Shown in pieces: positions 34,900 through 37,790 of a DNA stretch of 64,000 nucleotides. Location: contig NZ_AQUI01000002.1 of assembly GCF_000371785.1 (NCBI RefSeq), forward strand, positions 4,203,352 to 4,267,351. The letters run 5' to 3'. The DNA comes from Actinopolyspora halophila DSM 43834 (lineage in GTDB: Bacteria > Actinomycetota > Actinomycetes > Mycobacteriales > Pseudonocardiaceae). The notes under the pieces were generated by a model. The model did not search any database. It saw nothing but the letters and a program-made list of their open reading frames with translations, and was not told the origin of the DNA. Numbering within the stretch: position 1 is the first letter of the stretch; each line of letters starts with the position of its first letter. Both the position numbers and the translations under genes were made by a program.

Positions 34900-35658
34900 T
34901 CAGTCCACGGCCATGTAGATCGCGACGGCGGCGGCGATCACCACGACGGTCCAGCGCAGCCCCGCGGCGGGCAGCCGTTGCGCCACCTTGCCCCCGATCA
35001 CGCCCCCGAGCAGCGTGGTGGGCACCAGCGCCGCCACCGCGACCCAGTCCACCGGCGCGAACAGCGCGTAGATCACGACGGTGACCGCGCTGCCGAGCAG
35101 GCTCAGCCAGTTCTTCGCGGCGTTGAGCGTGCGCAGCGTCGCGTTGGCCGTCAGCACCAGGATCACCACGAAGATGACGCTGCGCGCCCCGCCGAAGTAG
35201 CCGCCGTAGACCGAGGCCAGCAAGATTCCTGCGGTGAGCAGCACCGTTTTGTCCGGGCCGTGCTGGTCCGGGTTGCCGAGCCACTTCCGGATGCGGTTCT
35301 GGAAGGCCATCAGCACGGCCGAGAGCCCCACGAGAGCGGGAACCACCGCGTCGAACACCTCGCCGGGGAGGGTGAGCAGCAGGGCGCACCCACCTCCGGA
35401 TCCGAGCACGGCCGCGATCGAGACCGACAGCAACCGGCGTCCGTTGGAGACGAGGTCCCGGCGCTGGCTGAGCGCCGCGCCGACGAAACCGGGGCCCTGG
35501 GCCACCGAGTTCGTCACGTTGGCCGCCAGCGGCGGCAGTCCCGTGCCGAGCAGCGCGGGAAACACCAGCAGCGATCCCCCGCCCGCGACGGCGTTGATGC
35601 AGCCGGACACCAGTCCGGCCACGGCGAGCAGTACCGGTTCCAGCCATTCGCCAAGCAC
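34900..35658 (-). CDS. TauE/SafE family membrane permease
   Basis: The 252-residue protein has seven to eight hydrophobic helices. The two TSUP motifs are visible: LVSGCINAVAGGGSLLVFPALL near 17-38 and SVYGGYFGGARSVIFVVIL near 150-168. Family members export sulfite, sulfoacetate or related organosulfur anions, or import them; no neighbouring sulfur gene indicates the substrate. GTG 35658 has a weak AGG upstream. Confidence 0.88.
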   Translation of the reverse strand: MLGEWLEPVLLAVAGLVSGCINAVAGGGSLLVFPALLGTGLPPLAANVTNSVAQGPGFVGAALSQRRDLVSNGRRLLSVSIAAVLGSGGGCALLLTLPGEVFDAVVPALVGLSAVLMAFQNRIRKWLGNPDQHGPDKTVLLTAGILLASVYGGYFGGARSVIFVVILVLTANATLRTLNAAKNWLSLLGSAVTVVIYALFAPVDWVAVAALVPTTLLGGVIGGKVAQRLPAAGLRWTVVVIAAAVAIYMAVD

Positions 35659-35761
35659 GGCGGAAACCTAGCTACCCGTCCGGGGACTTCCCACATCGGG
35701 GAGGGACTTTTCACAGTCGCCCGACGGCGCGGGACGCTGTTCCGTCCCGAAGTGCCGGAGC

Positions 35762-35905
35762 CCAGTTTTGCCTATAACTGAGGCTTATCCACCATGGGGA
35801 AAACTCTCAATCATAGGCAAAACTGGAAAACCCCACGGGCTCAGGCACCCAGGGCAACGCCCCAGCTCACTCCGCCGGCACCGCAGGTGCGGCAGCAACC
35901 ACGAA
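35762..35905. repeat. palindromic direct repeat, copy A (with decayed rdgB 3' end)
   Basis: CCAGTTTTGCCTATAA (35762-35777) faces TCATAGGCAAAACTGG (35811-35826), 15 of 16 pairs, around a 33-nt A/T-rich loop holding TTATCCACC. The following block to about 35905 matches 37146-37225, including GGGCAACGCCCCAGCTCACTCCGCC. Copies A and B start 1320 bp apart and flank an oxidoreductase gene. Weaker similarity may extend about 30 nt further left (CCGGAGC preceding both). Confidence 0.85.
35866..35905 (-). pseudogene. remnant of an rdgB 3' end
   Basis: Read on the minus strand, this segment runs GTTGCTGCCGCACCTGCGG, then GCGGAGTGAGCTGGGGCG. The real rdgB end at 37185-37225 reads GCTGCTGCCCCACCTGCGG, then GCGGAGTGAGCTGGGGCG. 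The match shows a duplicated terminal fragment of rdgB including its stop codon, with a small deletion. It is not expressed as part of a gene that I can support. Confidence 0.7.
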
Positions 35906-36026
35906 GCCGACCGCCCACTCCACTCGTCGGGAACATCCACCGGCTGAGCCGGCACCGGGTTCCCCGGCATTGCGCTGTCGGCGAATCCGCTGTCCCGGGG
36001 AGATTCCCCGTGGCAGTTTCGGCCGC

Positions 36027-36980
36027 ATGACAGGACTGCGCTTCTCGTACAACGTCGACGGGTTCTCCACCAGGGAGGACTTCGTCGAGACCTGCCGACG
36101 CGCCGAGCGCTGCGGCTACGACACGGTCTTCGCCGCCGATCACCTGGGGATTCCCGCACCGTTCCCGGTGCTGGTCGCCGCGGCGGAAGCCACCCGGCGG
36201 CTGCGGGTCGGCACGCTGGTGCTCAACGTGCCGTTCTGGAACCCCGCGCTGCTGGCCCGCGAGGTCGCCACGACCGACGTCCTCACCGGAGGACGTCTGG
36301 AACTGGGCCTGGGAGCAGGCCACATGAAGTGGGAGTTCGACGAGGCGGGTATCCCCTGGCAGCCCTTCGGAGCTCGCGCGGACCGGCTCGCCGAGACCAT
36401 CGAGCAGCTCGGTCGGTTGTTCACCCAGGACGGCTATCCCCAGCAGGAGGAACTCCGGGCGAGTCGCGACTTGCCGGCGCTGCGGCCCGTGCAGCGCCAC
36501 GGTTTCGGCGGGGTCGGCCCACCGTTGATCGTGGGCGGCACCAGCGACCGGGTACTGGAGATCGCCGGACGGAGCGCCGATGTCGTCAGCGTTTCCGGCA
36601 TCTTCCAGATCGGGGGACAGCCGCCGGGCACGATGCGGCTCGGCACGCCCGAGGAGACCGAGGAACGGGTGCGCTACGCCGCCGAACGCGCCGGTCGCCG
36701 AGCCGACCGGATCGAGTGGCACGCGCTCGTCCAGCTGGTGGTGCACACCGACGACCGGCGTGCCACAGCCGAGCAGCTGGCTCGGCGGTACGGGTCGGAG
36801 TCGACACCGCCGGAGCTGCTGCTGCGAAGCCCGTTCGTGTTCATCGGCACCACCGAGCAGATGGCCGAGCAGGTGCTGCGCAACCGGGAGCGCTACGGCT
36901 TCACCTACTACACCGTCCACGGCCCCTACCTGGACGCCCTAGCACCCGTCATCGAGCGGGTCCGCGAGATCGAGGGGTAG
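36027..36980 (+). CDS. LLM class F420-dependent oxidoreductase
   Basis: The 317-residue protein has the luciferase-like monooxygenase TIM barrel of the F420-using branch: FSYNVDGFSTREDFVETCRRAERCGYDTVFAADH at the start, LRVGTLVLNVPFWNPALLAREVATTDVLTGGRLELGLGAG near 70-110, and PPLIVGGTSDRVLEIAGRSADVV near 165-190. It resembles the MSMEG_2516-type subfamily. The substrate is not known. ATG 36027 lacks a clear ribosome-binding site. The gene lies alone between two copies of a palindromic repeat and interrupts the neighbourhood next to rdgB, which suggests arrival as a cassette. Confidence 0.88.
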   Translation: MTGLRFSYNVDGFSTREDFVETCRRAERCGYDTVFAADHLGIPAPFPVLVAAAEATRRLRVGTLVLNVPFWNPALLAREVATTDVLTGGRLELGLGAGHMKWEFDEAGIPWQPFGARADRLAETIEQLGRLFTQDGYPQQEELRASRDLPALRPVQRHGFGGVGPPLIVGGTSDRVLEIAGRSADVVSVSGIFQIGGQPPGTMRLGTPEETEERVRYAAERAGRRADRIEWHALVQLVVHTDDRRATAEQLARRYGSESTPPELLLRSPFVFIGTTEQMAEQVLRNRERYGFTYYTVHGPYLDALAPVIERVREIEG

Positions 36981-37081
36981 TTTTCCACCCGAGAGACACA
37001 GGATTCGGGCGGGCGCGCGCCTCTCCGGACGGCGTGGGCGGCCGGGCGGCGTTCGACGGCGTTTCCCGGGGCGCCGGAGCT

Positions 37082-37225
37082 CCAATTTTGCCTATAACTA
37101 GGCCTTATCCACATGGGAAAAACTCTCAATTATAGGCAAAATTGGAAAACCCACGGGCTCGGCCTCGCAGGGCAACGCCCCAGCTCACTCCGCCAGCGCC
37201 CGCAGGTGGGGCAGCAGCTCGCGCA
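37082..37225. repeat. palindromic direct repeat, copy B (overlaps the rdgB 3' end)
   Basis: CCAATTTTGCCTATAA (37082-37097) and TTATAGGCAAAATTGG (37130-37145) are perfect 16-bp arms with a 32-nt loop that contains TTATCCACA (37105-37113), an exact DnaA-box-like 9-mer. Relative to copy A, the G-C pair in the arm is replaced by A-T on both sides, so the stem is preserved. The repeat continues through the last codons of rdgB. Its GC content is far below the surroundings. Confidence 0.88.
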
Positions 37226-37790
37226 GCGCCCGGCCCCGGTGCGAGTCCGCGTCCTTCTCCGCCGAGGACAGCTCCGCCGAAGTGCGGCTCTCCCCCTCGG
37301 GAACGAAGATCGGGTCGTAGCCGAAGCCGTTGGTCCCGCGCGGCTCGCGCACGATCGTGCCCGGCCAGCTGCCGCGCACCACGGTCTCCGCACCGTCCGG
37401 GGTCACCAGCGCGGCGGCGGCCACGAAAGCGGCCCCGCGCCGCTCGTCGGGCACGTCACCCAACTGAGCCAGCACCAGATCCAGATTGGCCTGGTCGTCG
37501 CCGTGCTTGCCCGCCCAGCGCGCCGACAGCACCCCGGGCATCCCGTTGAGCGCGTCCACGCTCAACCCCGAGTCGTCGGCCACGGCCGGAAGCCCACCGG
37601 CCCGAGCCGCATCGGCGGCCTTGGCCAGCGCGTTCTCCTCGAAGGTCGCCCCCGTTTCGGGGGCCTCCGGGAACTCGGGCACGTCGTCCAGCCCGACCAC
37701 CTCGACACCGGCCGCCCCCGCGTCGGCGAGGATTCGCCGCAGCTCGACGAGCTTCTTCGAGTTACGCGTGGCCAGCAACAACCTGCTCAT
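37185..37790 (-). CDS. rdgB: RdgB/HAM1 non-canonical purine NTP pyrophosphatase
   Basis: The 201-residue enzyme hydrolyses dITP, ITP and XTP to the monophosphates and keeps deaminated purines out of nucleic acids. The substrate motif [18 protein letters not shown] is at the N-terminus, followed by [14 protein letters not shown] and [17 protein letters not shown]; the C-terminal [16 protein letters not shown] completes the signature. ATG 37790 overlaps the rph stop (ATGA). This pairing and order match Rv1341-Rv1340 of M. tuberculosis. Its last codons lie inside a duplicated repeat. Confidence 0.95.

Follow-up and report, generated by a model that had tools for sequence, protein, structure and literature searches.

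Many hotspots of gene turnover are free of mobile elements, and recombination is seen at the core genes beside them (Oliveira et al. 2017, PMC5635113). By what route genes come into integrase-free hotspots and are lost from them is an open question. Among dispersed repeats, recombination between REP elements has been reported, and these elements are often found between convergent genes (PMC1525189). According to Nunvar et al. 2010 (PMC2817692), REPs associated with RAYT are imperfect palindromes with a GT(A/G)G head. In E. coli, linear DNA can circularise and integrate via a RecA-dependent single crossover (PMC3240628).

The locus described here, between rdgB and a tauE-like gene in Actinopolyspora, is a gene-turnover spot in which an oxidoreductase gene lies between direct copies of a REP-like hairpin pair. 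Copies of the same hairpin bound other segments that are absent from sister genomes, and the hairpins may be sites of gene gain and loss. Segments bounded in this way make one route of entry and exit directly testable, and the repeat itself represents a REP-like family in actinobacteria for which no transposase was found.

Results

A duplicated block at the 3' end of rdgB

The window (the whole 64-kb stretch of DNA analysed, from genome G000) contains two co-oriented blocks spaced 1318-1320 bp apart, each comprising a palindrome and an rdgB end (Table 1). The positions and shared orientation given in the initial annotation were correct, and the two copies are identical at 135 of 155 aligned positions. 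One complete gene had been reported between them, and its product indeed matches PF00296 (Bac_luciferase) with an E-value of 1.5e-37. The sequence TTTTGCCTATAA, allowing up to two mismatches, occurs four times in the window against 0.07 expected, every time inside the two blocks. The supposed single palindrome does have inverted arms but is really composed of two inverted hairpin units of about 36 nt whose tails overlap; the right-hand pair has fold z-scores of -5.3 and -5.9 on the two strands. Several unit tails, including those at 35781-35791 and 37104-37112, contain TTATCCAC(A) or TTGTCCACA, motifs with a possible likeness to the DnaA-box consensus.

The decayed second rdgB end that had been described is present but longer than was recognised, covering bases 1-32 and 227-292 from the stop, so that the lost copy must have spanned at least 292 bp and been internally deleted. 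In blastn this remnant matches rdgB weakly in the window (E 4.7e-5 and 1.4e-5, with one unrelated place at E 1.7e-4), and the same remnant in the sister genome G001 matches clearly (E 3.0e-8 and 5.8e-11). Likewise, the block does consist of palindrome and rdgB end as proposed, but the duplication also spans tauE-side sequence beyond the palindrome, most clearly in G001. When the blocks of G000 and G001 are compared column by column, 10 informative columns pair the copies of the same genome, none pairs the orthologous copies and two are crossed. Copies within a genome are therefore more alike than orthologous positions, which can be read as exchange between copies within each genome.

Table 1. 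Features of the rdgB locus (window positions) and hairpin-bounded loci (G000 coordinates).
Feature	Position	Strand	Basis or content
tauE-like gene, conserved left neighbour	34900..35658	-	ORF; adjoins variable interval in congeners
Direct repeat, left copy	35762..35905		sequence comparison
Left hairpin pair	35761..35826	+ unit 35761-35784; - unit about 35803-35826	sequence, unit alignment
Left pair, inverted arms	35762-35790 / 35798-35826		sequence
Decayed partial rdgB copy	35867..35956	-	blastn of rdgB; same remnant in G001
Luciferase-like oxidoreductase gene, cargo	36027..36980	+	PF00296 match
Direct repeat, right copy	37082..37225		sequence comparison
Right hairpin pair	37081..37146	+ unit 37081-37104; - unit about 37122-37145	sequence, unit alignment, fold z-scores
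Intact rdgB, 3' end forming right-hand portion of repeat	37185..37790	-	ORF; congener alignment
Bounded locus	rdgB		oxidoreductase
Bounded locus	722-726 kb		PAP2 and jacalin/phosphatase genes
Bounded locus	4493-4496 kb		Nramp transporter
Bounded locus	1168-1171 kb		ABC transporter and two genes without match
Bounded locus	4655-4656 kb		no predicted gene
Bounded locus	1136-1137 kb		counterpart in G002 is a different 1.3-kb segment

The oxidoreductase genes of G000 and G001 are separated by 33 synonymous and 17 non-synonymous differences (dN/dS 0.17). Homologues at E <= 1e-80 were found in 10 of 200 family genomes and, within the genus itself, in G000 and G001 only. The best homologues outside the genus (71-72%) belong to two hairpin-rich Saccharopolyspora (L234, L235). 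Joint import of the gene and the hairpins from Saccharopolyspora was considered and the match left as coincidence: the 3.9-kb loci of the homologues hold no units, and neither rdgB nor a unit lies within the 16-20 kb around them.

The rdgB-tauE interval in congeners

We compared ten Actinopolyspora congeners, namely G000, its sister genomes G001 and G002, and G003-G009. The interval between rdgB and the tauE-like gene measures 1512, 1542, 237, 2691, 957, 99, 95, 957, 3642 and 3978 bp in G000 to G009, respectively, and thus ranges from 95 bp to about 4 kb with five kinds of content. It carries the oxidoreductase in G000 and G001, no gene in G002, G005 and G006, a small membrane protein in G004 and G007, ABC-transporter genes in G008, and the small membrane protein together with a NACHT gene in G009. 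In G003 the small membrane protein is accompanied by further ORFs, which are at a guess WXG/ESX-like (three ORFs of this interval were scanned and had no Pfam match). The initial annotation had looked to relatives for an empty site or a different cargo gene between the same repeats; a sister species has the empty site, and other species have other genes in this interval. The empty site is that of G002, where the window's two flanks overlap by 226 bp in a single block copy that already holds the hairpin pair; G000 has 1088 bp extra by comparison. No hairpin is present in the G006 interval.

An independent insertion is that of G008, where the last ~108 bp of rdgB recur beyond the ABC-transporter insert with 93.5% identity and no hairpin. 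Compared with the attached copy, the distal one is slightly more similar to G003, G004 and G007 (distal/attached identities 0.935/0.926, 0.926/0.907 and 0.926/0.917). G008 is the only one of 26 further genomes with a convincing second rdgB end, the second matches in G018 and G039 being short and weak (50 and 38 bp). An NNH1-NACHT gene abuts the rdgB stop in 4 of the 26 (G009, G016, G021 and G023), which belong to several genera (examples L064:5907-9035, L067:8141-11311). Across eight neighbouring segments G005 and G009 share 98.8-99.6% identity; the entire 3.9-kb insert nevertheless separates them, and their last rdgB codons diverge as far as the insert edge. As a separate observation, the short G005 interval (L060), set beside that of G007 (L062), suggests that G005 lost the membrane-protein gene by deletion across a short CGGCCA repeat.

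The segment had been said to contain no integrase, and this holds: a Pfam scan of ten insert proteins from these intervals gave no integrase match. The window likewise has no tyrosine integrase (PF00589), the nearest of 20 matches to that family in the genome lying about 520 kb away. A literature search on rdgB as an integration site returned no matching paper.

A dispersed family of hairpins

The hairpin unit reads roughly YCCARTTTTGCCTAWAAYTGGGAGTTNTCCNCAG, with a stem CCARTTTT and an asymmetric GCCT loop; it is 46% GC overall, with the AT-rich stem beside the loop. The exact pattern of the pair is found in its own genome at the right-hand pair only, and a relaxed search revealed a dispersed family. 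A unit model derived from copies in G000, G001 and G002 has 42, 36 and 39 matches in these genomes, partly by construction since the model was trained on them, and 20 variants in G006. At E<=1 G005 and G007 each have a single weak match and the remaining four congeners have none, and under stricter filters in a 60-genome family sample only G000 matches at E<=0.01. A scan for CCCARTTTTGCCTAWAAYTGGGA through 84,980 species, each represented by a single genome, from which records of the window's own genome were possibly left out, found 20 stretches: 10 in Saccharopolyspora elongata, five in S. shandongensis, four in A. biskrensis and one in A. mortivallis. At E<=0.1 the unit model has at least 133 and at least 92 matches in the two hairpin-rich Saccharopolyspora and at least six in G150, and none in G050, G165 and G180 among the 150 candidates scored per genome.

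The comparative evidence for a stem appears mixed but favourable. Changes on both sides of the stem occupy 53 cells against 34.4 when shuffled, and the covariation score is 0.217 against 0.171, with none of 500 shuffles as high in a set that includes related copies; there is no excess in stem pairs with both-side changes (4 vs 4.3 shuffled) or in pair types (13 vs 12.4). Comparison with Rfam gave mir-584 at 28.8 bits (cut-off 80) and p27_CRE at 22 bits (cut-off 42), both taken as chance. We found no published description of the hairpins in a literature search that was not a full review, and the family is new-looking, whereas turnover hotspots and REP-like repeats are already known kinds.

The 39 distinct G000 units fall between convergent genes in 21 cases, between tandem genes in 14 and between divergent genes in three, with one at a piece edge and none inside a predicted gene. 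By the same home-made gene finder, on which the gene-orientation and intergenic controls rest, 7 of the window's 41 gaps are convergent, as are 35 of 178 gaps at other Actinopolyspora loci. In a wider set of 120 units, which includes two probable chance matches (L140 and L061:3251), three lie inside predicted genes. Units are mostly single or in same-orientation arrays. At the Saccharopolyspora loci examined, neighbouring units less than 150 nt apart are co-oriented in 19 of 19 cases with a spacing of 44-74 nt, and arrays of two to four units in the same orientation are seen at L180, L183, L184, L190 and L193. In G006 (A. mortivallis; L160-L179), many variants adjoin a second, GC-rich hairpin (CCCCGCG..CGGGGAGCAC), present as scattered single copies, which we take to resemble the repeat of a type I-E CRISPR array.

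The tetranucleotide GT(A/G)G is over-represented next to the stem: it occurs within 11 nt in 34 of the 120 units, compared with 28 of 595 background stretches. Within 13 nt it is found in 11 of 19 units in G006, whose longer stem includes it, and in 16 of 69 and 9 of 32 elsewhere. We also looked for the RAYT arrangement, in which a Y1 transposase gene (PF01797) lies between two inverted copies. G002 and G150 carry units without any match to Y1; 29 Y1 loci yielded five loose-pattern matches and no good unit, and four further Y1 matches came without a locus.

Hairpins at the ends of other presence/absence segments

The initial annotation had suggested looking through the whole genome for other cassettes, and the same hairpin does bound other presence/absence segments. 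Insertions and deletions were collected from 69 pieces of 10.5-19.9 kb, 23 each from G000, G001 and G002, selected around hairpin units, with the 722-kb pieces added once the indel there was known. The sample holds 57 clean indels of at least 250 bp (55 when overlapping pieces are merged). In nine, each end of the filled segment lies no more than 80 bp from a unit, these rows corresponding to six loci of which some are counted in two comparisons (Table 1), and in 14 there is a unit at one end at least. A further 40 have no unit at the ends or the joint, so hairpins account for a minority of turnover. Both counts exceed those from chance placement of the units. When units were placed independently in intergenic gaps, the means were 0.19 for both ends and 6.37 for at least one end, and 0 and 5 of 1000 trials, respectively, reached the observed values; neither count was reached under uniform or convergent-gap placement. 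Shifts that preserve clusters gave means of 0.13 and 1.66; the version snapped to intergenic gaps gave 0.37 and 4.96, and under both versions 0 of 1000 trials reached either count.

At the readable loci the crossovers lie in or beside the hairpin, with divergence blurring the exact nucleotide. At 1168 kb, G002 keeps one unit that joins the left unit's outer flank to the right unit's outer flank; the flanks of the two G000 units are mutually unrelated, and the common sequence is an imperfect stretch of ~40 nt. At 4493 kb, G001 keeps one unit between the outer flanks of both units, with a flank overlap of 115 bp. The 4655 kb locus has degenerate units and a less clear joint. At 722 kb, a 3.5-kb segment of G000 and G002 is represented in G001 by 65 bp that hold one unit, again between the outer flanks of both units; of the outgroups, G006 has neither, and different DNA occupies the site in G003. 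Outgroup states were seen at the rdgB and 722 kb loci only, and gain and loss are therefore not separable at the remaining ones.

Neighbouring units were also examined as 26 pairs lying 150-8000 bp apart, with an interval scored as missing when 10% or less of it is present in a sister. Among 14 testable direct pairs, seven intervals (six loci) are missing from a sister, five are kept in every testable sister and two are intermediate; three more direct pairs were not testable. Of eight testable inverted pairs, the single missing interval is that of an inner pair of the rdgB block.

Discussion

We interpret the rdgB oxidoreductase segment as an accessory segment in a turnover spot at which recombination between direct REP-like copies adds or removes short segments, and we put about equal weight on this being right and wrong. 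Loss of a segment, by RecA-type recombination between direct copies or by replication slippage between them, would leave one hairpin. Gain, as read from presence/absence data, would occur when incoming DNA that shares the flank is taken in by a single crossover, duplicating the hairpin and, at this locus, the rdgB end. A single crossover with a circle would leave the second rdgB copy truncated on the left and the tauE-side sequence truncated on the right, as seen. No dedicated enzyme would be needed. Against this, the homology at 1168 kb is short for ordinary homologous recombination, the rdgB-end duplication of G008 has no hairpin, and five direct-pair intervals have been kept.

The G008 duplication fits a reading in which the 3' end of rdgB is itself the target, whether of site-specific or of one-sided homologous recombination, such that rdgB is restored, a truncated copy is left beyond and the hairpin is a bystander. 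The variability of the interval in most congeners, the NACHT genes that abut rdgB and the slightly closer affinity of the distal G008 copy to three congeners all point the same way. This reading leaves the hairpins at the ends of other segments unexplained, finds a convincing second rdgB end in G008 alone among the further genomes, and lacks an integrase match among the insert proteins scanned; we regard it as rather unlikely. Two separate events, after the model of hotspots that lack an integrase and recombine at the core genes beside them (PMC5635113), would suit the near-identical G005 and G009, which differ by a whole insert and in the adjoining rdgB codons. We give that account a slight chance, as it calls for two events where one suffices and is silent on the other bounded segments.

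A dedicated recombinase acting in trans could instead recognise the hairpins and insert or remove small cassettes, in the way that integron integrases act on folded attC sites. The conserved asymmetric loop, the putative compensatory stem changes, the readable crossovers and the unrelated flanks of the two units at 1168 kb would fit such an enzyme. However, no candidate enzyme was found, with none of the PF00589 matches within 500 kb of the locus, the repeat extends well past the hairpin at rdgB and 4493 kb, and divergence prevents a single-nucleotide crossover call, so that we consider this quite improbable. The fuller version, in which the hairpins serve as recognition sites for moving cassettes among scattered chromosomal sites, a dispersed and array-less counterpart of integron cassettes so far seen in Actinopolyspora and a few Saccharopolyspora, has in our estimate a slim chance. 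It is extremely unlikely that the hairpin pair marks the ends of a transposable element or MITE: the inverted arms and dispersed copies would be in keeping with one, but each end has its own inverted pair, units are mostly single or in same-orientation arrays, and the segment has no transposase. Recombination between direct repeats is the best reading, explaining the data with no need of a trans-acting enzyme, with a dedicated recombinase as a possible if improbable alternative.

The interpretation of the segment as a mobile cassette is partly supported by these results. What is not supported is the proposal that the palindrome is the private attachment site of one integrating element, because it is a dispersed repeat with about 40 matches per genome, is already present at the empty site, is absent from the G008 duplication, and is exceeded by the repeat at rdgB.

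Several known systems resemble parts of this picture. Integrative elements that target 3' gene ends also leave a truncated gene copy at the far boundary, as in G000, G001 and G008, but here the cargo is one to a few genes and no integrase match lies in the segment or, for PF00589, within 500 kb. Integrase-free turnover hotspots, as described in PMC5635113, share variable content between conserved neighbours with no integrase found, and differ in that some segments here have a hairpin repeat at both ends. Like integron cassettes and their attC sites, one to three genes are bounded by a hairpin and a single hairpin occupies the empty site; unlike them, there is no array at the rdgB locus, no nearby PF00589 match, and a repeat longer than the hairpin at some loci. 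The imperfect palindromes and the GT(A/G)G enrichment recall REPs with RAYT, although most units here have no such head. Compared with the REP and BIME elements of PMC1525189, the hairpins are AT-rich in the stem by a GCCT loop, are limited in the species scan to Actinopolyspora and some Saccharopolyspora, and sit at both ends of presence/absence segments. They are nevertheless like those elements in being short, intergenic, present in tens of copies and single, paired or clustered, and in the broad sense they are REP-like: palindromic, 21-65 bases long, repeated, extragenic, and preferentially placed between convergent genes.
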